From a virus, in IMG/VR virus record IMGVR_UViG_3300011440_000060, positions 1-20,509 of that record: DNA of 20,509 nt. The stretch is one strand, 5' to 3'. A program made the position numbers and the translations under genes. The notes under the pieces are model-generated. The model worked only from the letters and a program-made list of their open reading frames with translations. It made no database searches and had not been told where the DNA came from. This document shows, in pieces, positions 1,712 to 19,037 of this stretch (position 1 is the first letter of the stretch; every line of letters begins with the position of its first letter).

Positions 1712-2122
1712 CTAAACCCGCCAGGCGGCGAGCAGCCGCACCCGCTCCGCCGGCACCGAGGCCAGCCCGTCGTCGAGCCGCATGACCCAGCCGCGTGGCG
1801 TGCGGATGGCGCATATCGCGAGGTTCGCGCCGAGCTTCACGACGGCGACATCCCCGGGCTGCGGATCACGGGTCATCGGCAGGCCGAGGCAGCGCAATGC
1901 CTGTCCGGCGGCGCGTATGAGGCCGCCACGCCCGCCCTTATCGATGAGGCAGGCATTGGCGTCGCCTGCGTAGCCGCGGCAATCGGCAATTGGATCGACG
2001 CCGCGGCGCAGCCGCACCCAGTCAGCTGCCAGCGTGACGCAATCGGCCGCGCCGAGCTCAAAGCCGCGGCCCGCTTCGGCGCGCAAGAACGCCGGCAGGT
2101 CCGTCACTTCCAATAGACCCAT
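1712..2122 (-). CDS. DUF6950-like tail-tip protein (NlpC/P60-type peptidase relative)
   Basis: This 136-residue protein resembles the small cysteine-peptidase-like proteins found just before the tail hub in gene transfer agents and related siphophages. The recognisable pattern is F-x-L-G-A-A-D-C at residues 20-27, followed by AADWV, GVDP and a Cys/Arg/Gly-Tyr segment. A PGDVAVV motif lies near 93-99 and the protein ends in AAWRV. Cys27 fits the nucleophile of NlpC/P60 enzymes. I do not see a convincing catalytic His after it, so cleavage of peptidoglycan is not assured. The start is uncertain. ATG at 2122 overlaps the fibre gene by 19 bases. An in-frame GTG at 2107 gives a GTGA overlap like most other junctions here, with GGAA just before it. 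In phages with this layout the role would be local wall penetration during DNA entry. Confidence 0.7.
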   Translation of the reverse strand: MGLLEVTDLPAFLRAEAGRGFELGAADCVTLAADWVRLRRGVDPIADCRGYAGDANACLIDKGGRGGLIRAAGQALRCLGLPMTRDPQPGDVAVVKLGANLAICAIRTPRGWVMRLDDGLASVPAERVRLLAAWRV

Positions 2123-3831
2123 CCGCTGCCGATATGGCGGAAGGCGAGCGCGGCACCCGGCCCGTAGGCATTGGTCGGCCCTCCAGGCACCGTGACACCC
2201 GCGCTATCCTGTATCGTCAGCGCCGTCACCGGGTTGGCAAAGCCGATCTCGACAAGATGACCCGAGAGTGCGCCGGCCGGCAGCCTGATGGTTAGCGCCG
2301 CCAGCACGGCGGGGTTGTTGACATAAAGCGGCCGCAGGTCAGCGAGCGTCAGCGTCGCGCCCGAGGCCGGCGCCACGATGTTGACCGGCACCCGCGGCGG
2401 CTCCAGCGAGGCCGTGATGTCGCTGACGTCGATCGTGATCGCGTCGGTGGTATGCGCATCGCCGAACAGGTCGACATAGGGGCGGAAGTAGATGGTGCCC
2501 GGCGGCGCGGTGTGGTCGAGCGCCACAGTGGCCGGCGGCGCGATGCCGATGCGGACGGTGCGCTGCACCACCCCATCGGCAACGACCAGCGCGATGTTAT
2601 CAATGACCGCGGAGCCGTTCACGGCTTTGGCGTTGGTCAGCCAGGCAACGCCGAGACTGGCGCTGTCGTTGAGCGGGTCAGCCGGGTTGACCTGGCGCTG
2701 CACCCGCCATCGCACTTCGTAGACCCGGCCCGATTCGAGCGGATAGGCGGCAACGGGTGCCACCGTCTGCGGGTCACTCGCGGTCGCGGCGGTCACGCGC
2801 ACGACGCTGCCGGCGGCCGAGACGGCAACCCATGCCGGGTCAATCGGCACGACAGCATCGGCCGGGCCGGTCTTGGTTTGTCCGTACAGCCCGACTGCAT
2901 CGCCGGGGCGATGTGGCACCGTGGCGGCTTCGGCGTCAGCGAGTGCCTGGGTCGCGTCTTCCTGCGCGGCCACGGCCGTAGCTTGCGCTGCATCGGCATC
3001 GGCCTGCGCCGCCGCGGCGGCCGCCGTGGCAGTGTCAACTGCGGCATCGAGCACTAATCCGGCGGCATCCACATAGGCGGTCGTCGCAAGCTGAGCGCTG
3101 TTGGTGAGCGGCGCTGCGGTCGGCGCGGTCGGGACGCCGGTCAGCGGCGGGCTGGCGAGCGGTGCCTTAAGGTTGAGCGCGGTTTGCGTGGCGCTACTGA
3201 CCGGCAGATCGGCAGGCGCCAGATTGGCGACATTGCCGAGTCCGACATCCACCTTGTCCACGGCGTGCGGATTGCTGGTGTTCGCCTGGTGCGCATCGAT
3301 GTCAGACTGTGCGGCAACAGCGGCAGCCGCGGCCACATTGATTGCCGCCTGTTGCGCGGTGCTGACGGGCTTCGCCAGATCGGCGGTGTTGTCGACGCTG
3401 CCGAGCCCGACATCAGCCTTGGTGACTTGGTGCGGGTTATCGAGATCGGCGAGATGCGCGGCAATCAGGTCGTCGCTGGTGTCGCCGGCATCGAATGCGT
3501 TGAGCGCCGCCTGCACGAACTGAGTCGTCGCAAGCTGGCTCGTGACCGTGCCCAGAACGGCTGTCGGGGCCGTGGGCAGACCCAAAAGAGCCGGGCTGTC
3601 CAGTGGCGCCTTCAGCGCGAGAGCAGCACCCTGCGCCGTCGAGATCGGCTTGTCGGCATCGCTGGTGTTGTCGGCGTTGCCGAGCCCAACCTGCTCGGCG
3701 GTGACGGCGTGCGGGTTGGCGATGTCGAGCAGGTGCTCGTCGATATCGGCCCGTGCGATCGCATCGAAGGCCGAGGCGTAAATCTTGATCGTGCGCGTCG
3801 AAAGGTTCAGCGCGGCGTTGCGATTGCTCAT
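2104..3831 (-). CDS. Tail fibre protein with NPH / VGLGNV repeats
   Basis: This 575-residue protein has the repeat signature of trimeric phage tail fibres. Three copies are visible: a His, then NPH, then VGLGNVDN, then KPVS and a run of Gln/Ala/Leu. The NPH tripeptides fall at residues 39-41, 132-134 and 187-189. Copies 1 and 3 also carry KAPL-SP-LxG-PTAPTA and QLATT segments. Residues 255-303 form an Ala/Asp/Gln-rich coiled coil. After a Pro/Gly hinge, the last 270 residues make a beta-rich distal part that ends in GSGWVYWK, plausibly the receptor-binding tip. I see no cysteine and no signal peptide, unlike the upstream spike genes. The start is ATG at 3831 because it overlaps the upstream stop as ATGA. 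Upstream in-frame codons only translate an Arg-rich shadow. A chaperone gene for this fibre is not evident. Confidence 0.85.
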   Translation of the reverse strand: MSNRNAALNLSTRTIKIYASAFDAIARADIDEHLLDIANPHAVTAEQVGLGNADNTSDADKPISTAQGAALALKAPLDSPALLGLPTAPTAVLGTVTSQLATTQFVQAALNAFDAGDTSDDLIAAHLADLDNPHQVTKADVGLGSVDNTADLAKPVSTAQQAAINVAAAAAVAAQSDIDAHQANTSNPHAVDKVDVGLGNVANLAPADLPVSSATQTALNLKAPLASPPLTGVPTAPTAAPLTNSAQLATTAYVDAAGLVLDAAVDTATAAAAAAQADADAAQATAVAAQEDATQALADAEAATVPHRPGDAVGLYGQTKTGPADAVVPIDPAWVAVSAAGSVVRVTAATASDPQTVAPVAAYPLESGRVYEVRWRVQRQVNPADPLNDSASLGVAWLTNAKAVNGSAVIDNIALVVADGVVQRTVRIGIAPPATVALDHTAPPGTIYFRPYVDLFGDAHTTDAITIDVSDITASLEPPRVPVNIVAPASGATLTLADLRPLYVNNPAVLAALTIRLPAGALSGHLVEIGFANPVTALTIQDSAGVTVPGGPTNAYGPGAALAFRHIGSGWVYWK

Positions 3832-4163
3832 GTGTAGAGCCCTTCGAGCACATTGACCGGCACGGCGCATTCGGTGTCGGTGTCGAGCGCGAGGAACAGC
3901 TTGCACAGTTGCCCGAGCGGCATTGCTTCGGTCTGCGCCGCGGTCAGCGACAGCTTCGCGACGCCGCCCGGCGCATCGACGACCTCGACCGTCACCGGCT
4001 GCACGCCGAGTATCCAGCGGATTTCGCCCGAGACGGTCTTGCCGGTGAGATCGGTCGGCGTCGTCTCGGCAGTGTCTTCCCAGAAATGCGCATACCACTC
4101 CCACGGCTCGTCGCCGCGGACGAGCGGGATGGCGCCGTCGAGAAGCTCGATGTCGGATGACAT
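3828..4163 (-). CDS. BppU-like N-terminal domain / fibre adaptor protein
   Basis: This 111-residue protein resembles in pattern the N-terminal domain of phage baseplate upper proteins (BppU), which forms a small beta sandwich used to attach receptor-binding parts. The elements are an early LVRGDEPWEWYAHF segment, then DLTGKTVSGEIRW, then a late LSLTAAQTEAMPLGQLCKL stretch; such domains typically read 'L.rG.t..l...l.d..G...DLTG..v...ir'. Only the domain is present, so the protein may bridge the tail and the fibre encoded directly downstream. The start ATG at 4163 overlaps the spike gene stop as TAATG, and its own stop overlaps the fibre start as ATGA. The adaptor role is inferred from domain type and location. 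Confidence 0.6.
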   Translation of the reverse strand: MSSDIELLDGAIPLVRGDEPWEWYAHFWEDTAETTPTDLTGKTVSGEIRWILGVQPVTVEVVDAPGGVAKLSLTAAQTEAMPLGQLCKLFLALDTDTECAVPVNVLEGLYT

Positions 4164-6130
4164 TACCCGCCTGCCCGTGCCGTACAGCGATAATTGAGCT
4201 TGTTACCGCTGGCGGCGGTCTGCGTGACGCCGATGGCGAGGTAGTTCACGGTGTATTGCATTACCGGCAGGTTTGATTGCCACGTCACGGTGCAGTAGGG
4301 CGGCGCCGCCGCGCCCGCCGGGCCGCCGTACTGGTTGGCGAAGGTGATGATGCATGTGGTCGGGTTGCCGCTGCCGAGCGTGACCTCGCCCGCCCGGTCA
4401 TCGCCCGAGATCGTTGGGCTGGTGCCGCACGCGGTCAGCGCGGGCGGCGCGGTGTTCCCGCCGCGCTCGTGCCCGAAACGGTCGATGCCCCAGAGGTTCA
4501 CCAGCGTTGCCGCGGCATCGGCATTGCCGGGAGCCGCGGTGCCGGTAAAGCCGAACGCTCCGGTCGTGCTGTCGAGGCTTAGCAACCCTCCATAATTGGC
4601 CGCCGAGCCCTTGCCGAAAGCAAAGGTGCCGCCGCCCGTCCAACGAAGATTGAAGCCGATTCCCGGCGGGGCGTATTGCAGGTACACCGGCAAGTTCGGC
4701 CCGAACTTGGCGGATACGGCGAAATTGCTGCGGTTCGGCCGGTCGATGTCGAACACCGCGCCGGTAGGCCCCGGCGAAGTCTTGTAGGACATGCCGTTGT
4801 GATCGAAGAAGCCGGCGCCGGGACGGTTATCGAAATGCACGCCGTCATCGGCGATGTAGCCAAGGTTGGCGCCGCCCGCCACCACGGGGACCGGTGAGCC
4901 CGAGCCGCGGCCGTTCTGTGAGATGAAGTTATCGAAACTCGGCAAAGCCGCGGTGATCGTGCCGCTCGCCGCGGTCTGCGCTTGGTCTACCGTGTAGGTG
5001 CCGGTGCCGCCGGTCCCGGTGCCCAGCGCGGCGATCCGCACGGGGAAAGAAATGGCTGGGCCGTACAGCAGATACCCGACCTTCAGCGTTCCCGAGGAAA
5101 CAGCGCTCACGGTCAGCGTCGTCCCGCTGATCGATCCGGTGCCGGTGGCAAACACCGTCTCGGTCGCCCGGGGTGCGCTGCCGGGGTTGGCGTTGAGCCC
5201 GAAATATCCCTCGAAGATGTTTTCGCGGCATTCGGAGAGATTGTAGGGCGCGGTTGCAGAGGACGCGCCGCGCAATTCGATGCTCATGCCGGTGCCGCCG
5301 AGGATCGGCTGCCCCCAGCTTGAACGAACCCAGTTCGTGTCGGCGTTGATGCACTTCCACCCAACGCCGTTCTGATATTGCACGATCACATTGTCGAAGA
5401 CGTTCTGAAATGTGTCGTTCGTCTCGGTGCCGTTCCAGACGATGCCGTCCGAGGCGGCTGCGCCGGGACTGTCGAGGGTGATCTGAATATCCTCGAAGCG
5501 GCTGCGCGCCGAGCCGTTGGTGTTAACCGCGGATGGTGCCAGGTCGATTGCCGCCGCTGTCGAGTTGTGCAGGAACAGGTCGCGAAATTGCTGGCTCTGG
5601 TTGCTGCGGCCGACGAGCAGCTTTCCGGCAGACGACGCGCCTTCGAGGCACAGCCCGGTCATGCCGCCGCCGACCGTGAGCCCCGTGGCGTCGTCGCCGA
5701 ACGCGACCATCGTGCCGCCGGCCGCGCCGGTCCATTTCAGTTGCGTCTTGCAGTTGCCGAAGTTGCCGGGGCCGCCGGCACCGCGCAGCAGCACTGCGGG
5801 GCTGCCTGCCTGGGTAATGGTGGCGGCAATGCCGATGTTGCCGGCCGGCAGCACCACGACGCCGCCGCCGGTTTTGAACGAGGTAGTCGGGTCGGTGCCG
5901 ACGGTGGCCTTGGCTGCGGCAATCGCCGCATTGATGCAGGGCGTATTGTCGCCGGTTCCATCCGGCGCCCACAAGCAGTTGCCGTATTGCTTCGCATAGA
6001 CGACGCCGCTATCGCCTTGCAGGTTTGTGATTGCCTCCGGCAATTTCGCGTTCGATGCGTCCGGGTACATGTCGGCGCGGGCTGAAGTCGCGGCCAGCAA
6101 TAAAAGCCAGGCAATAAGGAAGTGGCCCAT
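4163..6130 (-). CDS. Exported beta-helix (pectate lyase-like) tailspike protein
   Basis: This 655-residue protein opens with a clear Sec-type signal peptide: MGHFLIAWLLLLAATSARA, with cleavage expected after ARA near residue 19. Residues about 50-110 carry the start motif of right-handed parallel beta-helix spikes: APDGTGDNTPCINAAIAAA, then a GGGVVVLPAGN turn. Long Gly/Asn/Ser-rich repeats follow, as expected for a beta-helix that binds or cleaves surface polysaccharide. The last 90 residues form a separate Cys-containing module that begins CGTSPTISGDDRAGEVTLG. I recognise this module as recurring at the ends of alphaproteobacterial phage fibre proteins. There are ten cysteines in total, an even number that fits disulfide formation after export. 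The start at 6130 overlaps the previous stop as TAATG. Enzymatic activity cannot be read from the sequence. Confidence 0.75.
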   Translation of the reverse strand: MGHFLIAWLLLLAATSARADMYPDASNAKLPEAITNLQGDSGVVYAKQYGNCLWAPDGTGDNTPCINAAIAAAKATVGTDPTTSFKTGGGVVVLPAGNIGIAATITQAGSPAVLLRGAGGPGNFGNCKTQLKWTGAAGGTMVAFGDDATGLTVGGGMTGLCLEGASSAGKLLVGRSNQSQQFRDLFLHNSTAAAIDLAPSAVNTNGSARSRFEDIQITLDSPGAAASDGIVWNGTETNDTFQNVFDNVIVQYQNGVGWKCINADTNWVRSSWGQPILGGTGMSIELRGASSATAPYNLSECRENIFEGYFGLNANPGSAPRATETVFATGTGSISGTTLTVSAVSSGTLKVGYLLYGPAISFPVRIAALGTGTGGTGTYTVDQAQTAASGTITAALPSFDNFISQNGRGSGSPVPVVAGGANLGYIADDGVHFDNRPGAGFFDHNGMSYKTSPGPTGAVFDIDRPNRSNFAVSAKFGPNLPVYLQYAPPGIGFNLRWTGGGTFAFGKGSAANYGGLLSLDSTTGAFGFTGTAAPGNADAAATLVNLWGIDRFGHERGGNTAPPALTACGTSPTISGDDRAGEVTLGSGNPTTCIITFANQYGGPAGAAAPPYCTVTWQSNLPVMQYTVNYLAIGVTQTAASGNKLNYRCTARAGG

Positions 6131-7002
6131 TAAAAGCCCCAAAATGCTTTTTGGTTGGCGGTCAGCGCTGCGCGTTCGGCCGCCGACAATGCGGTGCTGT
6201 TCCATTGAATGCTTTCGACGAAGCTGCACGCGGTGCCCGAGGCGGCCCCCATCGCGGGGTAAAATGTGCCGCCCGACGTCGCCGCCGTTACCGTGCCGGC
6301 CTGCTCGGCGCTGTCCACCCGCAGCACTGAGGCCGCGCCGTTTACGACGCCCACGCCCGCGTGCCACGCCCCATCTGCCGCCGCCAGACCAATGCTTCCC
6401 GTGCCGGCAAGCTGCCAGGTGTTCGCGGCGGTGGGTGCCCACAGGAAAGTGCTGGTGACGGCCATCTGGCAAGCGCCGGAGCCGCTCTGGCGCTTTGCTA
6501 CCATTGACAATGATTGGATCGCGGTCGGCACGAAGCCCGCTACTTGGAGAAACCGGAAATCGGCCGTGCCCATGTTCATGCACGCCGTCAAATTGAGACA
6601 ACCGAACTGGAGCGGCGGGCGATTGGCCGCAGCAGCCGGGGCTGCGTTGCGCCCATTGCCGGATTGGTCGTACCAAAGCACGACGGTGCAGGTCGTCGCC
6701 GCGCAGTAAGCCGCTGCCGCCGCTTCATCCCACGGTGCCCCGAGGCCGGGCACGAACCCGAGAAAGTTAATGTCTGTCTCGGCACTATCCGATGCTCGAC
6801 GAATGCGAGCCGCCGGGCCGGTGTAGTTGCTCCTCAGCTTGCGAAAGGAGTACGCCGCCGCCGGGACGGTGAATCCATCCAGCGGCGCCGCCGTCGCCGG
6901 CACAATGCGGTGGCCACGATAGGGCGCGTGCATACGGGCATCGGCCACGCCAGCCGTAGCCAGCAAAACCGCCGCCCCCAGCAAGAAGGAACGTCGGCGC
7001 AT
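6130..7002 (-). CDS. Exported LamG/arabinofuranosidase-like protein
   Basis: This 290-residue protein begins MRRRSFLLGAAVLLATAGVA, an Arg-rich start and hydrophobic core. The RRSFLLG part looks like a twin-arginine (Tat) signal, with a possible cut after ADA at residues 20-22. The next part resembles the concanavalin-like catalytic fold of arabinofuranosidase B and related LamG-type domains in phage tail proteins: AYSFRKLRSNYTGPAARIRR, then DINFLGF, then VVLWYDQSGNGRNA. Its likely substrate or ligand is a cell-surface or extracellular polysaccharide, but catalytic residues cannot be assigned with confidence. It has six cysteines, several in pairs (YCAATTC, CLNLTAC). The start lies two bases after the preceding stop. 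The C-terminal GGTFYPAMGA to KAFWGF stretch is typical of this LamG type. It may be a spike component or a secreted polysaccharide-binding protein. Confidence 0.75.
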   Translation of the reverse strand: MRRRSFLLGAAVLLATAGVADARMHAPYRGHRIVPATAAPLDGFTVPAAAYSFRKLRSNYTGPAARIRRASDSAETDINFLGFVPGLGAPWDEAAAAAYCAATTCTVVLWYDQSGNGRNAAPAAAANRPPLQFGCLNLTACMNMGTADFRFLQVAGFVPTAIQSLSMVAKRQSGSGACQMAVTSTFLWAPTAANTWQLAGTGSIGLAAADGAWHAGVGVVNGAASVLRVDSAEQAGTVTAATSGGTFYPAMGAASGTACSFVESIQWNSTALSAAERAALTANQKAFWGF

Positions 7003-7004
7003 GC

Positions 7005-7355
7005 TCAGATACCGGAGCCCGGGGTCAGGTAGAGCGTCGCCGTGCCGGTCGCGGTGATGCCGGCGATGTGGCTGGTGCAGCCGATTACCTCGACCGTCCC
7101 CGGCGCGATCGGCATGCCAGCGGCCGTGGTGGCGACCACGGTAACATCACCGCAGGCGACGAACGCCGCCACCGTGCCGCTGTTGTAAATGCGGGCGTGC
7201 TGCGTCGTGACATCGGCCGGCAGGATCTGCACCCGCGCCGTGGTGGTGCTCGCCGCCAGCGTCACGGTGGGACCGGAAGCCCGAAACGCGGATTGCTGCG
7301 CCGTCGCCGGCAGGGCGAGCAGCAGCAGTGCCGCGGCAATCGCGAAACGAAGCAT
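7005..7355 (-). CDS. Small exported beta-rich phage protein
   Basis: This 116-residue protein has a Sec signal peptide: MLRFAIAAALLLLALPATAQ, with a consensus ATA-Q cut near residue 19. The mature part is almost entirely short beta-like segments (ARVQILPADVTTQHARIYNS, GTATLYLTPGSGI). It has two cysteines that could pair (FVACGD and VIGCTS). The pattern resembles small hypothetical proteins encoded beside tail genes of alphaproteobacterial phages, but I know of no established function. It is the first of three genes in a row with export signals. Its ATG has a good AAGGA ribosome binding site that overlaps the preceding stop codon. It might be a capping or decoration piece for the exported spike proteins, or a secreted protein unrelated to the virion. 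Confidence 0.75.
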   Translation of the reverse strand: MLRFAIAAALLLLALPATAQQSAFRASGPTVTLAASTTTARVQILPADVTTQHARIYNSGTVAAFVACGDVTVVATTAAGMPIAPGTVEVIGCTSHIAGITATGTATLYLTPGSGI

Positions 7356-7364
7356 CGGGGTTTG

Positions 7365-7369
7365 TCCTT
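7365..7369 (-). promoter_or_regulatory. Ribosome binding site overlapping the upstream stop codon
   Basis: The minus strand reads TAAGGA, so the TAA stop of the upstream tail-tip gene is shared with an AAGGA Shine-Dalgarno sequence. Nine bases separate it from the ATG at 7355. It supports this start and suggests coupled but independently efficient initiation at the head of the exported-protein cassette. Confidence 0.55.
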
Positions 7370-7973
7370 AGTAATCCGGCCAGGTCAGCGTCTGATTGAC
7401 CAGGCTCGCGGTGTATTCGAGGAAGCGGTCGCCGGAATAGCGGGTCTGCTGCTCGCGGTCGGTGTAGCGGCCGGCGGCGGGCCGACCGCGGCCCCAGAAC
7501 AGATTCTCTGTGGGCAACTGCAGCGTGCGCCGCGCACCGATCGTCTCGGTGGCCGGCTGCAATTCGACCCGCGGCGGCATGCAGATGCCGAAGTAGATCG
7601 CTATGGGGCTGCCGGCCGGCTGCCAGGCGCCGTCGAACAGTTGCAGCGACACGATCGCCAGCCGCCCCTGGATATTGTCGGCTTCGGCGAGCGCCCGCGC
7701 GAGCAAGTCGGCCGGGCTGTCGGGCACGCCCGAGAGCGAGAATGTCACCTGATGGCTGACCGGATTTCTCGCCTCCTCCAGCCCGTCGATGTTGCCGAGA
7801 TCGCCCGCGCCCAAATACGTCTTGCCGGCGAAGACACGGGTGCCAAAGCCGTTCCACAAATACACCGGACCGCCGGACGGCGGCGTGCCGCCGAACTCGA
7901 GATCGACCAGCGTGCCGACGCGTACCGTCGAACGGGCGAGCGCCGCCGCCTCATCTGGAGTGAAGAACGCCAC
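7368..7973 (-). CDS. Phage minor tail / tail-tip protein
   Basis: This 201-residue protein follows the tape measure by one gene, the usual place of the lambda gpL-type or DUF2163-type tail-tip proteins. Visible features are an N-terminal beta domain (VGTLVDLEF, then PVYLWNGFGTRVFAGKTYLG), a HQVTFSLSGVPDSPADLL segment typical of tail-tip proteins, and a C-terminal GRYTDREQQTRYSGDRFLEY stretch. No signal peptide or membrane segment is present, in contrast to the next three genes. The start codon is GTG at 7973, five bases after the preceding TAA, with only a weak TTGGA upstream as ribosome binding site. The tail-tip call comes from position and pattern. The exact family is not certain. Confidence 0.65.
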   Translation of the reverse strand: MAFFTPDEAAALARSTVRVGTLVDLEFGGTPPSGGPVYLWNGFGTRVFAGKTYLGAGDLGNIDGLEEARNPVSHQVTFSLSGVPDSPADLLARALAEADNIQGRLAIVSLQLFDGAWQPAGSPIAIYFGICMPPRVELQPATETIGARRTLQLPTENLFWGRGRPAAGRYTDREQQTRYSGDRFLEYTASLVNQTLTWPDY

Positions 7974-8575: not shown

Positions 8576-10440
8576 AGCTGGCGGGCCTGCGCCTCGGCCG
8601 ACATGCCGCCGAAATTGCGCGCCACTGTGCGCTGCGATTGCCTGACCGCGACCTCGATGATCTGCCCCGAGCGGGTGACGATGCGCTGGTCGGCGACGCC
8701 GGCAACCCAGCCTTCGCTCGGGTTCAGATCAATGCGAATGGTTCCGCCGCCGCGGCGGGCGTCGCTCTGGCGCGTGACGTCCACCATCTCGCCGGGCGAC
8801 GCGCGGAACGCGACCAACTGGCTGTCGAGCGCGCCCGCCCCGCCGACCCGCCAGTGCGCGCCGTTCTGTGCCTTCGCGAGCCCGCCGAACAACGAGCCGA
8901 AGATGCCGCCGCCGGCTGAGCCGCCGAACAACGCGCTCCCGGCAGCGTTGAACAACGCGTCGAACGCCTTGTCGGCGAGCTTCTTGCCGATGCTCTTTAA
9001 CAGGTTGCCGATCGCGTCGCGGAGCTTGAAGGTACCCTCGATCAGAGCATCGAAGGCGCTGCCGAGCGAGCCCTTGATGCTGTCGCCGAGATCGGAAAAC
9101 ACTTCCTTGAACTTGTTGCGCGTCTCCAGCGCGGACTCCTGGAAAGTGGCCTCGCGCTCGGTCAGATAGCGTTCTTCATCGAGTTTCTCGGCGGCTCGCA
9201 GTTTGCGGGTTTCGTCCTGGTCGGCGACCGCGGCCTCCAACTTCTTTTTGTAGAACCCCTGCGTCGCCGCCCATTTCTCGTCGAGTAATTTGCGCTCGGC
9301 CGCGATGCTTTCCTGCTTGGTGATTTTCTCCATCGCGAGATCGTGCTTGAGCGCCTGCTCCCGGCGCCGGAATAGCTCGTCCGAAATCTTGCTCTGCTCC
9401 TCGGCGGCCTCGATGGCTTCGCGCTGGCGGCGCTCCAGTTCCCGCTCGGCGGCGCGGGCCAACGCATCCTCGCCCTTGCCGGCACCACCGCCGCCCTTCT
9501 TTGGCCCGGCTGTTTTGGGAATGCTTGTCGGCTTCGCTGTAACAACCACTTCCGGTAAAACTGCGGTTGCAACATCCGAGCCCTGCATCAGGTTCTTAAA
9601 AAAATTGTAGAATTGAATGATCTTGCGGAGTTCCTCGACCGTGGTCTGCAGGCGGTTGATGCCCTCTTGAATAAAGTCGACGAATACCGCAAACGCATCC
9701 CGCCCCGTCGCCGTGATCGTGGCAAACAGATTGTCCAGTGATTTATCGACAGCCTTTGCTGCTTCGTCAAAGGCGGCCATCCCCGGATTGAGATCATCAA
9801 ATGCCTTTTTCTGTGCCGCTAGACCATCGGCTCCGTCCTTGAAAAGCCCAATTAGCGTCCGCCAACGGCCACTAAGAAGTTCGGCCATCGCCGCAGTCTT
9901 TTGCGGGCCATCCGGTAATTTTTGGAAGGCGTTTGCGAGTAGGTCTATTACTCCTGAGAGGTTATTGCTATTTGCCTGTAATTGTTGCTGGCTGATGCCA
10001 AGGTCTTTGAATGCGCGGGCCGCCGTGCCAGTCGGTTCGGCCAGAGCGTCCCGCAATGCTACCGCGAGCTTGGTCAGCGTCCGGGCGGCTTCATCTGCGG
10101 TGGTGCCATTTGCGATAAGCACGCCTTCCAATCTACGAAGCTCAGCGATGGGCAATCCTAAAGCGATGGCGAGGTTCTCGGCGGCTTCGCCAGAATCGGC
10201 CATACTCTTGACCCAACCTGCGATCCCGGCGACGGCACCGCCGAACGCCAGCGCCCTGAGCGAACCGGCGATGCCGTTAATGCTGCCGGTGATCGTCTTC
10301 GCCTGACCATCAATCGTTCGGGCGACACCGGCAAATTGCCGCCCGAAGCCCGTCAGCTTGGCGTTTGCCTCGGCGATGCCCTTATTGAAGCTCGCCGTCT
10401 CCATCTGCAGCGCGACGAGCAGATTGCCGATCTCAGGCAT
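8572..10440 (-). CDS. Tail tape measure protein
   Basis: This 622-residue protein sets tail length and is ejected ahead of the DNA in siphophages. The N-terminus (IGNLLVALQMETASFNKGIA) is the characteristic start of many tape measure proteins. It is followed by amphipathic helices and a hydrophobic Ala/Gly segment around residues 60-80. Residues about 325-430 form a highly charged coiled coil with repeated Glu, Arg and Lys. The C-terminal part has Gly-rich FGSLFGGL segments, then DSQLVAFRASPGEMVDV, which is typical of tape measure C-termini. At roughly 1.5 angstroms per residue a tail near 90-95 nm is expected. The start is ATG at 10440 because MPEIGNLL begins the conserved part and overlaps the preceding stop by eight bases. 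Base composition in the central section is clearly lower in GC than at both ends. Confidence 0.92.
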   Translation of the reverse strand: MPEIGNLLVALQMETASFNKGIAEANAKLTGFGRQFAGVARTIDGQAKTITGSINGIAGSLRALAFGGAVAGIAGWVKSMADSGEAAENLAIALGLPIAELRRLEGVLIANGTTADEAARTLTKLAVALRDALAEPTGTAARAFKDLGISQQQLQANSNNLSGVIDLLANAFQKLPDGPQKTAAMAELLSGRWRTLIGLFKDGADGLAAQKKAFDDLNPGMAAFDEAAKAVDKSLDNLFATITATGRDAFAVFVDFIQEGINRLQTTVEELRKIIQFYNFFKNLMQGSDVATAVLPEVVVTAKPTSIPKTAGPKKGGGGAGKGEDALARAAERELERRQREAIEAAEEQSKISDELFRRREQALKHDLAMEKITKQESIAAERKLLDEKWAATQGFYKKKLEAAVADQDETRKLRAAEKLDEERYLTEREATFQESALETRNKFKEVFSDLGDSIKGSLGSAFDALIEGTFKLRDAIGNLLKSIGKKLADKAFDALFNAAGSALFGGSAGGGIFGSLFGGLAKAQNGAHWRVGGAGALDSQLVAFRASPGEMVDVTRQSDARRGGGTIRIDLNPSEGWVAGVADQRIVTRSGQIIEVAVRQSQRTVARNFGGMSAEAQARQL

Positions 10441-12735: not shown

Positions 12736-13316
12736 CCGAAGCCGATCCGCGCATGATTGATCAGGAGCGCCGTCACCGCGTAAGGCACTTCGGCGAGGTT
12801 GCCAGCGGCGGCCGTCTCGCGCTGCGCGTACCAGTGCCCGACGAGCAGCAGCATGGCCTGGCGGATCGGTGCCGCGACCGCGGCCGGCGCCTGGCCGGCG
12901 ACAAATTCCACCGTCACCGCGTCGTCGCGCACCGCGGTGGCGGGCCATAGGGCGTCGGTGGTGCGCTCGATCCGGGGCCCGGCCTCGGCCTGCACCAGCC
13001 GGTAAAGCGTGTCGCCGACCACCCCCGCAACGCCGGCCTCGTCGTAATAGTTGATCGCGGTCACCGCCTCTACCGGCTGCAGCCCGAGCGGCAGCAATAT
13101 CGGGTCGGTGAACAGCGGATAGGCCTGCGCCCAGGATTGCGTGACGAGCGCCCGCCCCAGAATGCCCGTCGCGCCTTCGAGGTAGCCCGTCGCGGCGTCA
13201 ATGTAGAGCTGCAGCGTCGGGTCTTCGTCGGTGTGGTCGATCCGCAGATGCGCCCGTACGTCCTCGAGGCTAATCGGGGAGAGGATCGGCGCTTCGGTGC
13301 GAATTGCGGTCAGCAT
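12732..13316 (-). CDS. Head-tail connector (HK97 gp6 / phiE125 gp8 family)
   Basis: This 194-residue protein matches the connector family that binds the portal ring: LSPISLEDVRAHLRIDHTDE, DPTLQLYIDAATGYLEGATG, then a RALVTQSWAQAY strand. Late in the protein come PAAVAAPIRQAMLLLVGHWY followed by a QRETA segment, and a C-terminal VPYAVTALLINHARI. These are diagnostic for the phiE125 gp8 / HK97 gp6-type families. The start ATG at 13316 overlaps the preceding stop as TGATG. It is separated from the portal gene by the collagen-like gene, an unusual intrusion into the usual portal-connector neighbourhood. Reading further upstream from 13526 in the same frame gives only an Arg/Ala/Pro shadow of the collagen gene. 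Confidence 0.92.
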   Translation of the reverse strand: MLTAIRTEAPILSPISLEDVRAHLRIDHTDEDPTLQLYIDAATGYLEGATGILGRALVTQSWAQAYPLFTDPILLPLGLQPVEAVTAINYYDEAGVAGVVGDTLYRLVQAEAGPRIERTTDALWPATAVRDDAVTVEFVAGQAPAAVAAPIRQAMLLLVGHWYAQRETAAAGNLAEVPYAVTALLINHARIGFG

Positions 13317-14188
13317 CAGGCGCGCACCAGGAGCGGGTAGAGATCGGCGGTCAGAGTAGAGCCGTCCGCCAGGGTCAAGGTCAGGAGTCCCGCGTCGTCG
13401 ACCGAGAAGCCTTGCGGCGCGGGGCCCGGCGGGCCGGGATAACCGCGCTCGCCATCGGCGCCGCGCGGGCCGAGCGGCCCGGCCTTGCCGCGGGAGGCGA
13501 CGAGCTGCCAGCCGTCGCCGGGACATGGGCCTGGCGCGTCCTGTAATGCCACCCAGGACCCGCCGTCATGTGCAATGACATCGAGATATCCATAATCACG
13601 GCCTGCCTTCCAAGTGCCCCGGAATGCCAGCGAGCGGCCATCGCGCCCCGCCGCGGCGAGCACCGCCCAATCATCGGCCGGCGGCGGCTGGCCGGTGTCG
13701 CGCAACGCCTGCCAGGTGCTGCCGCCGAGTGTCACGACGTCGCCGGCGTACCAGACGCCGGCACGCCATACCGACACGGCCGCCAATTTGCCGGGCGGGC
13801 CCTCGGGACCGGGCGGTCCGGCGATGCTCTCGCCGTCGCGGCCGGGCGGGCCCTCGGGACCGGGCGGTCCAGCTATGGACTCGCCAGGCTCGCCCTTGTC
13901 GCCGGGCGGGCCCTGGGGTCCGGTGATGCTGTCCCCGTCCTTGACCAGCGCCAGGCGCGCCGCGACCTGGTCGGCGAGCTGCTGCAGGGCGCCCCGCACG
14001 CACGCCTCGGCTTCGAGCCGGGCGGCGCGCAGTTCGGCCAGCGCGGCGGCGAGATCGGCTTTGGCGGCGGCGACCTCGAGGCGCACCTCGCGCTCGAGCC
14101 GGGCGACATCGGCACCGAGTTCGCCGGCGAGCGCCTCAAGCGGCAGCGCGCGCGGCTCGGTAGGCCCGGATCGCCCGCTCGGCATCAT
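13316..14188 (-). CDS. Collagen-like protein with two CBM5/12-like modules
   Basis: This 290-residue protein has a clear modular layout. Residues about 15-80 form an Ala/Glu/Arg/Leu coiled coil. Residues about 84-130 are G-x-y collagen-like repeats (GPQGPPGDKGEPGES, with GPPGPEGPPG twice). Two related modules of about 45 residues follow, each with Trp, a Tyr, then a GG-x-W segment (WRAGVWYAGDVVTLGGSTWQ and WKAGRDYGYLDVIAHDGGSW), like CBM5/12 carbohydrate-binding modules. A second short collagen stretch (GPLGPRGADGERGYPGPPGP) leads to a C-terminal DGSTLTADLYPLL. Coiled coil plus collagen suggests a trimeric fibre. It overlaps the portal C-terminus by about 50 bases. The start is uncertain among 14209, 14188 and 14185; GCGAGG precedes 14188. 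It may be a head fibre or decoration protein that binds glycans. Confidence 0.8.
   Translation of the reverse strand: MMPSGRSGPTEPRALPLEALAGELGADVARLEREVRLEVAAAKADLAAALAELRAARLEAEACVRGALQQLADQVAARLALVKDGDSITGPQGPPGDKGEPGESIAGPPGPEGPPGRDGESIAGPPGPEGPPGKLAAVSVWRAGVWYAGDVVTLGGSTWQALRDTGQPPPADDWAVLAAAGRDGRSLAFRGTWKAGRDYGYLDVIAHDGGSWVALQDAPGPCPGDGWQLVASRGKAGPLGPRGADGERGYPGPPGPAPQGFSVDDAGLLTLTLADGSTLTADLYPLLVRA
13791..13870 (-). repeat. Collagen-coding tandem repeat (two identical 29-base copies)
   Basis: A 29-base element at 13791-13819 recurs exactly at 13842-13870, spaced 51 bases (17 codons), with a partial third copy near 13902-13916. It encodes the repeated GPPGPEGPPG block followed by a DG-ES-IA spacer. 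The period is a multiple of three, so unit number can change without breaking the frame. It is coding, not a CRISPR array. Confidence 0.8.
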
Positions 14189-15527
14189 CCTCGCTTTCGT
14201 CTTCGTCATTGGCCGGCTCGGGCAGCGCCGGCGGTGCTGCCGGCGTCGCCGGCGGCGGCTGCATGTCCGAGCCGTAGGACAGCGGCACGACCTGCTGCTG
14301 CACCCGCGGCTCCTTGCCGTGGCCGCCCGGCACGCGGCCGAGATCGACCAGTGCGCGGGCTTCGTCGGGCGCATAGATGCCGCCGATGACGCCGAGCTGC
14401 AGCGCCTCCATCTGCTCTTTGAATTCGCTGCGCAGGAGACCGCGCGTGTCCATCTCGAGCCACTCGAACGGCGGCCCGCGCAACCCGAAAAAGAGGCCCA
14501 TCGCCTCCTCGAAATGGTTGAGGCAGAACCCGAACCCGCTGGCGAGCCAGCTGGAATAGAGCGCCTCGGTGGAGCTCACCGCCTGGGTTCCGAGCCCGAG
14601 GATCGGCAGCGGGATGCGAAAGGCCAGCGCGATGTTCTCGCTGTTCATTTTCAGCAGTTCGGCGAGGCGCCCGTCATTTGCCGACATCGTGACGGCGCGA
14701 GCTTTCAAGCCCCATCCGATAGCCGGCGAGCGGCCGGCATTCGATCCGGTTGTCGCGTCCTGGAACTCGTCGGCCAGTTCCTTCGCCTTGCCGGTTGCCA
14801 ATTTCTCGTCGGTTTCGAGCACAAAGCGCGGCGTGGCGCCGTTGAGATAATGCCGCACTTGCTGCGACAGCGCCGCGCCCGAGAGCGCCATGTCGAGCGC
14901 CGCCGCCGTAATCGGCGAGACGCCTATCAGCGGGTGCCTCGGGGTATGCAAGCGCAGGTGCAACACGTTGCGCGCCGGCTGCGGCTCGGTGAGGTCGACG
15001 CCGCGGGTGCGCAGATAGGTTTCGAGATCGGCGTGCGCCCGCAGCACATACCACAGGCCGCCGCCGGAGCGGTCGGAGAAGGCCGGCGTCGCGCGGTCCA
15101 TCAGGTGCAGCGACTCGACCTCGCCCCGGTCGTTGCGCAATGCCAGCGCATAGGCGTTGCCCTCGGCGTAGAGCCGCCGGATCAGGTTGAGCACGACATC
15201 GCTGATCGAGGAATAATCGTTCGGATCGCGCAGGATGCGGGCCAGCGCCGAATTGGTGACCTGTTCCTTGCCGCCGTCGGGTAGCGCTTTCCAATGCCCG
15301 CCAGGCAGGCTCGCGGTGGTCTGCGAATAGGCCGCGACGCAGGCCTCGACCATCGCGCTGGCGCCGGCATAGGGGCGCACATCCTGCGCCGACTGCCAGA
15401 AATTCCACGGCGTTCCCGCCGGCAGCCAGCCGTTCGAGAGCAGGTAGGGCCCGGGACGATACTGCCCCTCGACCGCCGGCGCCGCCCGCCGCAGCGGCGC
15501 CAGCATGGTTTCTACCCAGCGCAGCAT
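14136..15527 (-). CDS. Portal protein (HK97 family)
   Basis: This 463-residue protein has the size and motifs of HK97-type portals, which form the dodecameric DNA gate of the head. Typical segments are VEACVAAYSQTTASLPG, LARILRDPNDYSSISDVVLN, LIRRLYAEGNAYALALRNDR, then SPITAAALDMALSGAALSQQ, and a late FRIPLPILGLG and SSTEALYSSWLASGFGFCLN. The C-terminal 60 residues are Pro/Ala-rich, then acidic and then Arg/Ala-rich, probably unordered. The ATG at 15527 abuts the preceding TAA. In most HK97-like phages the portal gene precedes protease and capsid. Here it comes after them. Its stop lies within the start of the collagen-like gene. Confidence 0.93.
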   Translation of the reverse strand: MLRWVETMLAPLRRAAPAVEGQYRPGPYLLSNGWLPAGTPWNFWQSAQDVRPYAGASAMVEACVAAYSQTTASLPGGHWKALPDGGKEQVTNSALARILRDPNDYSSISDVVLNLIRRLYAEGNAYALALRNDRGEVESLHLMDRATPAFSDRSGGGLWYVLRAHADLETYLRTRGVDLTEPQPARNVLHLRLHTPRHPLIGVSPITAAALDMALSGAALSQQVRHYLNGATPRFVLETDEKLATGKAKELADEFQDATTGSNAGRSPAIGWGLKARAVTMSANDGRLAELLKMNSENIALAFRIPLPILGLGTQAVSSTEALYSSWLASGFGFCLNHFEEAMGLFFGLRGPPFEWLEMDTRGLLRSEFKEQMEALQLGVIGGIYAPDEARALVDLGRVPGGHGKEPRVQQQVVPLSYGSDMQPPPATPAAPPALPEPANDEDESEDDAERAIRAYRAARAAA

Positions 15528-15873: not shown

Positions 15874-16252
15874 AGCGGTTGGTCACTTGCTGGTACAGAA
15901 GCGCAGCGGGCACCTCGATCGCGACGGCGAAGTCGCGTTGCGCCGCCTGGATTACCGGGAATGCCCGGGTGCCGCTGCGTACCTTCAGAAACGCGACGGC
16001 GCGCAGGTAATCCGAGAGCGGCGCGACGACGACGGCCGAACCCGGCACCACCGGGATCACGATCTCGCGGCCGTCGATCGTCACGAGATCGTTGTAGCCG
16101 GCGCCGTCGCTCGATATCTGGAACGACAGGTTGGCGCCGGTCCAGACGGCCGGCATGGTCAGCCGCACGATCTCGCCGGCGGTGCAGTCGAGCCCCGCCG
16201 ACAAGGATTGCCCGGCCGCGATGATCGGGCCGTTCAGAACCTGCAGCGGCAT
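15872..16252 (-). CDS. Small beta-rich head protein, possible capsid decoration protein
   Basis: This 126-residue protein follows the capsid gene directly, with a TAATG overlap that fixes the start at 16252 rather than at the in-frame upstream ATG (16285). It is mostly beta-like: GEIVRLTMPAVWTGANLSFQ, SSDGAGYNDLVTID, PLSDYLRAVAFLKVRSGT, then a late DFAVAIEV strand. The pattern 'W..A.L.F..S.DG......' and 'V.FLKVRSGT' recurs in small hypothetical proteins beside capsid genes of alphaproteobacterial phages. Position and fold type suggest a head decoration or stabilising protein, but I know of no established function. There is no signal peptide. Confidence 0.7.
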   Translation of the reverse strand: MPLQVLNGPIIAAGQSLSAGLDCTAGEIVRLTMPAVWTGANLSFQISSDGAGYNDLVTIDGREIVIPVVPGSAVVVAPLSDYLRAVAFLKVRSGTRAFPVIQAAQRDFAVAIEVPAALLYQQVTNR

Positions 16253-18177
16253 TACGCCGGCGCCCAGTTGACGCCCGCCATCCACTGCACCATGCCGGTG
16301 CGGCGCATCGCCCAGGTCACCGGCATGATCAGACGCAGCGCCAGCTGGTTGGTCTGGAACATGCTCTCGACCGGAGTCGATGCGGTCCCAGAAACGATAT
16401 GAGCGGGCGCGGTGTCCTCGATGTGCAATGTCGCCTCCTCGCTGACCATGAATTCCGGCGTGCCCATTGCGCTGACGAAATCTTCGCCCTCGACCATGAT
16501 GACGGTGCCGGCCGGCACCACCGTCGATTCGATTATGGTCATTCCTTCCGTCACCGCGGCCGTCCAGCCGATGCCCATGTTGCCCGGGCCGGGCACCAGG
16601 CCCAGCGCCCGGCGCTGCGCCGGGTTCATCAGCATCACCAGCCTGGCGCCCGCGTTCACGGCGTAGAACGGCGCGGTCAATTTGCCGATGTCGCCGAGCA
16701 CCGCGCCGTAGCCGCCGCCGGCCGTGGCGGTCAGCGCCGCAACGCCGTTGAGCAGCCCGGCCGGCCGGGTGGCGCTACCAGCGACGGCGTCGATCACCAG
16801 CGTGTCGAGCACGATGTTGGTGGTGCGGATGATCTCGCTGCGCACCAGACCCTCGATCGACGGGTTCGATGCCTCCGCGATCTCTCTGCTGTACCGGGTG
16901 ATGACGCCGACCTTGTGCGGCCGCAATTCGATCGACGTGAACCCCATCCGGCGCACCGGGATCGGCTGGGCTTCACCGACGAAGCTGCCCGCGATCGACG
17001 GCGTGGTGGCGGTCGACGGGATCTTGATGACCCAGCCGTCCGGCCCGAAGTTGAGCGCCGTGCCGGCGGCCGACAGCCCCGGCAGGATGCGGCCGGGCGT
17101 CAGGGGCGCGAGGAATTCGCGACTGGTGGTCTGCACCAGTTCGGCGGCCCAGGTCGCCAGCGTCGTCGAGGCGCCGGGCTGCGCGGCGCGGGTGATGATC
17201 GAGGTGGCTTCGTCGTCGGGATACCAGTCGCGCAGGATCTCCTCGATCGGCTTTCTGGTGGCGTTATGGTGCAACGAGATGGCGCCCGCCCGCGCCCAGT
17301 AGTCGACGCCCTCGAGCTCGCGCTTCGGCAGGCTGAGCGGCCGACGGTTGATCGCCGGCGCGGTGACGGTGGTGGCGGCGGCCTGCTGCGCCGGCACGCG
17401 CGGCGCCAGCGCCTTTTCGGCGACTTCGAGGCTGGCGAGCTCCTCCTGCAGCGCATCGACCTCGCCCGCCATCGCGTCGCGCTGCGAGCGGTCCTGGTGC
17501 TCTTGCGCGAGATATTCGGTGAGCGCGTCGCGCGAGGCGTTGAGGCGTTCCTGTACGGCTTGAATCTTCTGTCCGATGTTCATGGTTGACGTGATCCTGG
17601 GCGGTGCCCGCGTCGCGGGAACCCGGTACGGATCGGCAAGCTCGCCGCGTCTGCCGTCCAGCCCTGTTGCGGCAAGCTCGCCGAAGGCCAGGCGGATCGT
17701 CTCTTCGCTAATGTGCAGGGACCGCGCGAGGTGCAGCGCGGACGGGTTGGCCGGCACCGACACGATGCTGGCTTCGAGCAATTCGGTTTCGAGGAAGCGG
17801 GTGCCGCGGTGCGGCGCCTCGGGGTCGATCGGTTCGCGTTTTAGCGGGCGGAACCCGACGCTGGTCGCCGGCAGGATGTCCTGCCTAATCAGGCTGATGA
17901 TCTCGTCGATGCGGGCGCTGGTGCCGGCGTCGGCCGGCGCGAGATCGGCGATCAGCTGCTCGCCCTCGACCCGCGGGTTGCGCCAGGTGCCGATCGGGAA
18001 GCTGGTGTCGTGGTTGAACAGCGCCACAGGGTTGCGGCGGAACCAGTCGAGCTGCCAGCCCGACGGCTCGATGATGTCGCCCATGCGGTCGCGGGTCGCG
18101 TCGCTGAGCACGAACGACAGCGAGCCGGCGCGCTTGCCGGCCGCCTCGCGGCGGTGCATTGCCATTCCGTTAACCAT
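16252..18177 (-). CDS. Fused HK97-type prohead protease and major capsid protein
   Basis: One 641-codon frame joins two proteins that are separate genes in HK97. Residues 1-150 are the S78-type prohead protease: a LFNHD segment with His56, an ATSVGF segment with Ser106, and LLEASIVSVPANPSA with Glu135. These are the likely catalytic residues. Residues 199-262 form a charged coiled coil, like the scaffolding delta domain. The rest is the HK97-fold capsid: VQTTSREFLAPLTPGRILPG, then YSREIAEASNPSIEGLVRSE, then LVMLMNPAQRRALGL. Cleavage to the mature subunit probably falls near residues 275-290. An internal ATG at 17583 (Met199), with AGGA 11 bases before it, could make a separate scaffold-capsid protein. 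The main start is unclear among ATGs at 18177, 18165 and 18159; GGA is best placed for 18159. Confidence 0.9.
   Translation of the reverse strand: MVNGMAMHRREAAGKRAGSLSFVLSDATRDRMGDIIEPSGWQLDWFRRNPVALFNHDTSFPIGTWRNPRVEGEQLIADLAPADAGTSARIDEIISLIRQDILPATSVGFRPLKREPIDPEAPHRGTRFLETELLEASIVSVPANPSALHLARSLHISEETIRLAFGELAATGLDGRRGELADPYRVPATRAPPRITSTMNIGQKIQAVQERLNASRDALTEYLAQEHQDRSQRDAMAGEVDALQEELASLEVAEKALAPRVPAQQAAATTVTAPAINRRPLSLPKRELEGVDYWARAGAISLHHNATRKPIEEILRDWYPDDEATSIITRAAQPGASTTLATWAAELVQTTSREFLAPLTPGRILPGLSAAGTALNFGPDGWVIKIPSTATTPSIAGSFVGEAQPIPVRRMGFTSIELRPHKVGVITRYSREIAEASNPSIEGLVRSEIIRTTNIVLDTLVIDAVAGSATRPAGLLNGVAALTATAGGGYGAVLGDIGKLTAPFYAVNAGARLVMLMNPAQRRALGLVPGPGNMGIGWTAAVTEGMTIIESTVVPAGTVIMVEGEDFVSAMGTPEFMVSEEATLHIEDTAPAHIVSGTASTPVESMFQTNQLALRLIMPVTWAMRRTGMVQWMAGVNWAPA
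17581..17598 (-). promoter_or_regulatory. Possible internal translation start for the capsid part
   Basis: ATG at 17583 begins MNIGQKIQAVQERLN, exactly where a stand-alone scaffold-capsid protein would begin. AGGA at 17595-17598 is 11 bases upstream, a little long for an ideal spacing. It could give a second, protease-free product in excess over the fusion. Confidence 0.45.
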
Positions 18178-18707: not shown

Positions 18708-19037
18708 ATGGACACGGCGACTAGACGAACACTTGCTTTCGCTGTCATTGCAACCATCGGCGTTATAGCCGCCGTTGCGCCCCCGATAGCAACACCAGCT
18801 CCATCAACACCAGTAACAACTACTTATCCGGCATCCAGCTATCGGTTGACACGCGCCCAGGAGGATACATTTGTCAAAGCGGTGCGCGAGAACGGTTATA
18901 TCTGCAATCGCGTGATGGGGTCGCGTCATTTGCTTAGCGAGCCTGGTATGACCCTGCATTGTGAGAATTGGACTTACGACTTCCACCAAAAGGCCGGTCG
19001 CTGGACAATTACGCCCCGGAAACTCTGGGGTCAGTAA
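18708..19037 (+). CDS. Membrane-anchored or secreted small protein, unknown family
   Basis: This 109-residue protein has an N-terminal hydrophobic segment (residues 8-28, TLAFAVIATIGVIAAVAPPI) that could be an uncleaved anchor or a signal peptide. A Pro/Thr/Ser-rich linker (29-43) follows, then a small domain of about 65 residues with two cysteines (GYICNRV and TLHCENW). The cysteines are placed for a disulfide, so a periplasmic location is likely. No family is recognised with confidence. Its codons and base composition are visibly less GC-rich than the neighbours (52% in the 60 bases from 18781), a sign of separate origin. The stop abuts the terminase stop on the other strand, with no space for a terminator. 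Lysogenic conversion or superinfection exclusion are reasonable guesses. Confidence 0.7.
   Translation: MDTATRRTLAFAVIATIGVIAAVAPPIATPAPSTPVTTTYPASSYRLTRAQEDTFVKAVRENGYICNRVMGSRHLLSEPGMTLHCENWTYDFHQKAGRWTITPRKLWGQ

Follow-up and report, generated by a model that had tools for sequence, protein, structure and literature searches.

Phage tailspike depolymerases are not known to carry signal peptides and, as far as is known, assemble in the cytoplasm, and export of such a protein would be unexpected, since phage particles assemble within the host cell. A bacterial counterpart with an export signal has been described: Pantoea stewartii WceF is a tailspike-like β-helix enzyme carrying a twin-arginine translocation (Tat) signal (PMC7949094). 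XepA of PBSX is reported to be exported during phage development and absent from mature particles (PMC6834076), and another source lists it among proteins found outside the cell without a signal peptide (PMC1266369). Similarly, some endolysins (the signal-peptide and signal-arrest-release (SAR) types) use the host Sec pathway (PMC6116005). No published description of an exported tailspike-type phage cassette was found at the level of titles and the opening lines of abstracts. Here, we analysed the IMG/VR virus record IMGVR_UViG_3300011440_000060 (20,509 bases, G+C 66.7%; this whole stretch is referred to as the window), in which three consecutive minus-strand genes, A (7005–7355, 116 aa), B (6130–7002, 290 aa) and C (4163–6130, 655 aa), encode proteins with signal-like N-termini. 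We read them as late-made, exported, disulfide-bonded and glycan-active proteins that work outside the cytoplasm, and give this reading, taken as a whole, an even chance.

Predicted export signals and cysteines of A, B and C

The N-termini are as the original prediction described them: each protein begins with a predicted signal peptide, comprising residues 1–19 in A (cut after MLRFAIAAALLLLALPATA, ahead of QQ), 1–22 in B (after MRRRSFLLGAAVLLATAGVADA, ahead of RM) and 1–19 in C (after MGHFLIAWLLLLAATSARA, ahead of DM). Signal peptides were scored by a rule of our own, calibrated on three stretches of E. coli K-12 whose genes we sorted into what we take to be exported, cytosolic and membrane classes. 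At a score of ≥4.0, the rule passed all 14 exported proteins, none of the 75 cytosolic ones and 9 of the 27 from the membrane; because membrane proteins also pass, it argues against a cytosolic protein and cannot on its own separate out uncleaved anchors. A, B and C scored 5.14, 6.12 and 4.67, respectively. Among 17 other selected window proteins, only the hub protein J (161–1711) passed, with a score of 3.82 and an uncharged n-region. When all 130 window frames of at least 60 aa were scored, 10 reached ≥4.0, eight of them on the plus strand and mostly opposite other genes; C is absent from these hits because its frame opens further upstream (as far as a TTG at 6676, the C start being the ATG at 6130 that overlaps the B stop). 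In 5000 trials each, shuffles of the whole protein matched the observed score in 0.4% (A), 0% (B) and 0.2% (C) of cases, and shuffles of the first 40 residues in 0.8%, 0.02% and 0.2%.

The signals are retained in relatives. We gathered 85 viral loci (L002–L086) and kept 63 after dropping 22 near-copies, although some near-copy rows remain. These 63 loci contained 62 A-like frames, 55 from close and seven from distant relatives. Of the close A relatives, 54 passed the signal rule (52 at ≥4.0) and the sole miss is cut by a contig end, whereas three of the seven distant ones passed with low scores and none at ≥4.0. All 51 B-like frames passed (49 at ≥4.0), as did all 51 C-type frames from the 63 loci and 12 further ones, each at ≥4.0. 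Conservation lies in the mature parts and not in the signal sequences, which vary; many matches start at A residue 20–24, just past the predicted cut. In C, the predicted cut lies directly ahead of the D of a conserved DMY motif in 46/51 proteins. Across 41 distinct C junctions, position −1 holds Ala 40 times and Gly once, and position −3 holds Ala 31 times, Leu seven times and Val three times; judged by sequence, these positions look like signal peptidase sites. More generally, the predicted n-, h- and c-regions and an AxA-like site are conserved in the relatives, as expected of Sec export with cleavage by signal peptidase I. In the loci examined for the motif NAxxPxAxxN[LIM], each of its 50 distinct stretches is preceded by a start whose signal scores ≥4, and none lacked one. 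To gauge the background, we scored the other 473 predicted genes in the 63 loci that reach ≥150 aa: 34 attained ≥4.5 with a charged n-region; 26 of these encode further C-type, QQVxxP, B-like or WbsX-like proteins, leaving eight others (read by eye). We consider it very probable that A, B and C are exported.

The claim of a Tat-like signal in B fared less evenly. The twin-arginine motif is present in window B, but the pattern used found it in just 4/51 B relatives (it also occurs in L113 and L116, outside that set), and the Tat pathway was rejected as a trait of the B family.

Recounting confirmed the predicted cysteine numbers of 2, 6 and 10 in A, B and C. The supposed contrast with neighbouring proteins held only in part: the fibre-like protein and the tape measure have none, but J has four, the 136-aa protein five, the Dit-like and 111-aa proteins two each and the gpL-like protein one. 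Parity was more informative. Among non-redundant mature proteins that contain any Cys, the number was even in 36 of 37 for A, 41 of 41 for B and 44 of 45 for C (one further C has zero), compared with a chance-like 113/223 of the other plus-strand predicted proteins of the same loci, controls that were picked for having no hydrophobic N-terminus and that may include spurious frames. Among close A rows (window included, L038 cut), Cys68 is present in 56/56 and Cys93 in 54/56; both are missing in 8/8 signal-less A rows, two of which carry other cysteines. Across 29 B sequences, Cys100, Cys105, Cys135 and Cys141 never vary, and L070 has lost Cys178 together with Cys259. As the signal-bearing A rows form one close-kin set, the evidence from A stands for a small number of independent events. 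Independence is greater among the C bodies. Together, signal conservation and cysteine parity give good support to the proposal of disulfide-stabilised proteins outside the cytoplasm, and disulfide bonds in all three are highly likely on these grounds.

Folds, gene order and spread of the cassette

C combines a conserved mature N-terminus (DMYPDASNAKLPEA) with a variable body. The signal and the ensuing peptide DMYxDxxNA are common to its relatives, while whole-protein identity to window C is 20–28% in four relatives and 27–33% in eight picked as nearer. The nearest relative of the body among the gathered loci is L122 (E 3e-37); the viral scan confirmed no relative of the body, neither C nor its N-terminal peptide matched anything in 50,697 phage records, and C had no match among the sequences of solved structures. 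The better-modelled part of C matches right-handed β-helices. These include Fri1 gp49 tailspike 6c72 (Z 23.0, root-mean-square deviation (rmsd) 21.2 over 328), 7chu (Z 22.4, rmsd 4.3 over 266), the alginate epimerase/lyase 8ja4 (Z 20.8, rmsd 3.4 over 249), 2pyg (Z 20.4, rmsd 2.4 over 221), LKA1 gp49 4ru4 (Z 19.3, rmsd 17.1 over 309), WceF 6tgf (Z 19.1, rmsd 4.0 over 279) and V. cholerae RbmB (Z 19.1, rmsd 5.3 over 279). Since both virion spikes and other polysaccharide enzymes are among the matches, the fold cannot decide between these. A short stretch of C (residues 328–399) is common to PHROG tail-fibre families and is possibly a movable insert.

B matches the Pfam model ArabFuran-catal (2e-11) and AbfB of the PDB (∼1e-12). 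The alignment covers the first part of the GH54 domain. Among the 50,697 phage records, B had five matches, all partial. Two-domain forms make up 10/51 B frames, and one B carries three tandem domains (L113:3574–5961, 795 aa). A polysaccharide-active fold, as originally proposed, is supported for C by its β-helix and more weakly for B by a partial match, and we consider it probable that the three proteins are glycan-directed.

The mature part of A (∼97 aa) is modelled as a small β-sandwich (mean predicted local distance difference test (pLDDT) score 88.5) and resembles unnamed phage proteins, many of ∼85–140 aa (50 matches, E ≤0.001). Against PDB structures all Z values were <8, the best being PirA (Z 7.9, rmsd 3.0 over 81), and the five matches to sequences of solved structures (best E 0.013) were judged unrelated. 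The 50,697 phage records held one relative of A, a distant one in Microcystis phage Mwe-JY08, whose record had no match to the B profile.

The three genes travel together in a group of environmental tailed phages. B follows A in 51/55 loci, with a spacing of −4 to +4 bases in 45, and of the four loci that have A but no B, two break off within 700 bases of A. Directly after B, a signal-bearing gene with a DMY/DMF-type mature start is found in 37/48 checkable loci. A tape-measure Pfam model was dropped as a siphovirus mark because it matched only 2/37 records, and loci were instead typed by their similarity to window proteins and to those of L057/L066 (‘sipho’ and ‘podo’ being our own labels). 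By this measure, the 55 loci with A comprise 26 podovirus-portal, 17 window-like and 12 unassigned ones. On the B tree these labels interleave, with nine changes, at least three of them forced by well-supported branches (shuffled mean 11.4), and phages differing in tail and portal type share one mature N-terminus of C. The site of the cassette varies: it belongs to the tail module in the window and L042, sits between the capsid and portal genes in L074 and precedes the terminase in L057 and L066. A fixed tail-module gene set was accordingly rejected. Among the podovirus terminase relatives (best 80 of 169; records partial), A, B and C are all present in L217 (terminase 78% identical), and none of them was found in the 4–7 kb upstream in L174, L182, L183, L184 and L201 (78–79% identical). 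With J as query, only two viral loci were found, L145 with the cassette and L146 without A, B or C in the available stretch; in L156 the A match is cut by a contig end, with no B or C in the available stretch. Gene content and the B tree suggest that A-B-C is an accessory, moron-like gene set that has moved between phage types, absence having been seen at the terminase site only.

Further signal-bearing genes lie near the cassette in other phages, namely WbsX-like, pectate-lyase-like and QQVxxP-family genes. Over the cut-off are a WbsX model match in L032 and a pectate-lyase model match in L019. The L032 protein (13886–15073, Glyco_tran_WbsX 9e-7) has a twin-arginine motif, as does one in L078 (8078–9253, 4e-4, under the cut-off). 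Proteins starting QQVxxP form a second signal-bearing family (L141:2558–3694, L014:12342–13976, L019:15468–17306, L116:7130–8650), some members of which continue into an NAxLPxARxNL motif resembling that of C. A further signal-bearing protein with the mature start DTFVTLGGALWNTTN occurs in podovirus-group loci (L017:1531–2328, L182:13499–14296, L183:12137–12934), L182 and L183 being loci that show no cassette at the terminase. In L057, an HslV-like peptidase gene (9312–9929; phrog_1040, 2.6e-19) lies directly upstream of A.

In the window itself, the minus strand read leftwards carries a terminase-like gene, a protease-capsid fusion, a portal-like gene (terminase and portal identified by likeness and by eye), tail genes and then A-B-C. 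The gpL-like tail protein (7368–7973, minus strand; phrog_2048, 4e-44) ends 12 bases upstream of A and has no signal peptide. After C follow a 111-aa protein without a signal peptide (3828–4163, minus strand; phrog_1084, 1e-6; LtfC 0.029, under the cut-off), whose start overlaps the C stop, the fibre-like protein (2104–3837, minus strand; start uncertain), the 136-aa protein and the J-like hub. The fibre-like protein, which adjoins the cassette also in L014 and L042, lacks a signal peptide. Tight head-to-tail packing joins A, B and C to these neighbours and makes late expression likely. Elsewhere in the window, prohead protease and major capsid protein apparently form one fused frame (16252–18177, minus strand; best match in phage records a Rhizobium phage capsid, 28%), a frame with collagen-like GPP repeats adjoins the portal gene and is retained in relatives (13316–14374, minus strand), and a 109-aa plus-strand frame between the capsid and terminase genes (18708–19037), with a signal- or anchor-like N-terminus scoring 4.37, may be a real gene.

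Free exported proteins as the favoured reading, and the alternatives

On the reading we favour, A-B-C would be a self-contained accessory cassette of tailed phages, made late, alongside the virion proteins, as the operon packing suggests. The proteins would leave the cytoplasm through the host Sec pathway (B possibly through Tat in some phages), be trimmed by signal peptidase I and form their disulfides in the periplasm. There, and outside the cell after lysis, they would bind and process envelope or extracellular polysaccharide, with C as the variable β-helix enzyme or lectin, B as its GH54-like, lectin-like partner and A as a small β-sandwich scaffold. The glycan layer around the dying cell would thereby be opened, or receptors occupied, and progeny would spread. 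The sequences speak to export and disulfide bonding; the later steps are inferred. That the proteins act mainly free, rather than as virion parts, we hold to be slightly the better choice; the presence of a signal-less fibre-like protein in the window counts in favour of the reading as a whole, as do the signal-bearing WbsX and pectate-lyase matches in other phages. Several observations weigh against the favoured reading. The signal rule also passes some membrane anchors, as the calibration showed. Overall confidence in the C model is low (mean pLDDT 51.7), A-B-C is packed with tail genes in the window, and the conserved mature N-terminus and variable body of C look like a virion anchor with a receptor-binding domain. 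LtfC-like tail-fibre-assembly matches occur in 14/55 loci with A, not always adjacent. Furthermore, the terminases of the cassette-lacking podovirus relatives are 78–79% identical, so that the absence may reflect lineage and need not mean loss or gain.

Decoys for phage receptors and spikes that join the virion after lysis, both suggested in the original prediction, are possible roles. Owing to the fibre and LtfC-like genes in some loci and the variable C bodies, docking onto virions after lysis is a serious rival, which we nonetheless rate as clearly less probable. Here C, with A and B, would form its disulfides while passing through the periplasm and attach to completed virions at lysis as an exported tail spike, A or B serving as the adaptor that binds the conserved mature N-terminus of C. 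The tailspike fold of C and its constant start on divergent bodies fit this, as do two C-type proteins in one locus (L019, L032, L044, L052, L078, L110, L134), the occurrence of a B-like domain in PHROG proteins annotated as virion structural protein, and signal-less A relatives that adjoin the terminase (L080) or directly follow the major head protein (L082). Yet one C N-terminus serves phages with different tail types, which suggests that C docks not on the tail but on a co-travelling partner (perhaps A or B); in the podovirus group the cassette sits upstream of the terminase, a place where some relatives do not show it; and we know of no tailed phage that exports its spikes and docks them at lysis. 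A somewhat more doubtful proposal is two-compartment assembly, in which spike and adaptor are exported, oxidised in the periplasm and joined to finished virions at burst, as a movable host-recognition kit for unrelated tails. If docking does follow lysis, tailed-phage virion assembly has an unrecognised extracytoplasmic step.

Secretion from lysogens, another suggestion of the original prediction, would be a further possibility. In a lysogenic-conversion or superinfection-exclusion role, prophage-made proteins would be displayed outside and modify or mask receptors; the cassette is accessory and mobile, and a tyrosine integrase is found in 9/34 records with at least one cassette gene (records partial). 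Against this stand the probable late-gene position, among tail genes in the window, and profile scans of 84,980 genomes, in which none of the candidate stretches (103 for A, 56 for B) was confirmed, in scans built on exact short patterns that can miss relatives. The B profile also matched none of 72,556 plasmids. We regard this role as unlikely. Finally, it is highly improbable that the N-termini arose by chance, or that they serve ordinary virion proteins of the cytoplasm as membrane or assembly segments: uncleaved anchors can pass the rule, J is also hydrophobic at its N-terminus and antisense window frames can pass, but the AxA-like sites are conserved, the cysteine counts are even, signal and Cys pair are jointly absent in distant A relatives, and chance was rejected by conservation in relatives together with parity.

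Comparison with known systems

Endolysins with signal peptides or SAR domains are lysis enzymes and A-B-C is spike-like, Sec use being common to both, here as a prediction (PMC6116005). XepA has a weak fold likeness to A (Z 5.8, rmsd 3.2 over 82), which at Z <8 is no evidence of kinship, and it belongs to a lytic cassette, unlike A-B-C. WceF and C are both tailspike-like β-helix proteins with an export signal, while the WceF gene is bacterial and lies in an exopolysaccharide cluster (PMC7949094). GH54 α-L-arabinofuranosidase B (1wd3 and others) matches B over profile positions 51–128 with its C-x4-C pair aligned, the rest of GH54 being unaligned.

In architecture C resembles phage tailspike depolymerases such as Fri1 gp49 and LKA1 gp49, which, like C, have a right-handed β-helix, a short N-terminal segment and a variable body. 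C shares their parallel β-helix fold, on a model of low overall confidence, and, with its predicted signal, departs from the cytoplasmic, signal-less character of tailspikes. Unlike those depolymerases as far as they are known, the cassette proteins conserve a signal peptide and even cysteine counts. If they are indeed exported, they would run counter to the usual expectation that a protein of the tailspike type is a cytoplasmic component of the virion, and a signal peptide together with even cysteines would be a mark by which exported phage glycan proteins could be told from virion spikes in metagenomes.

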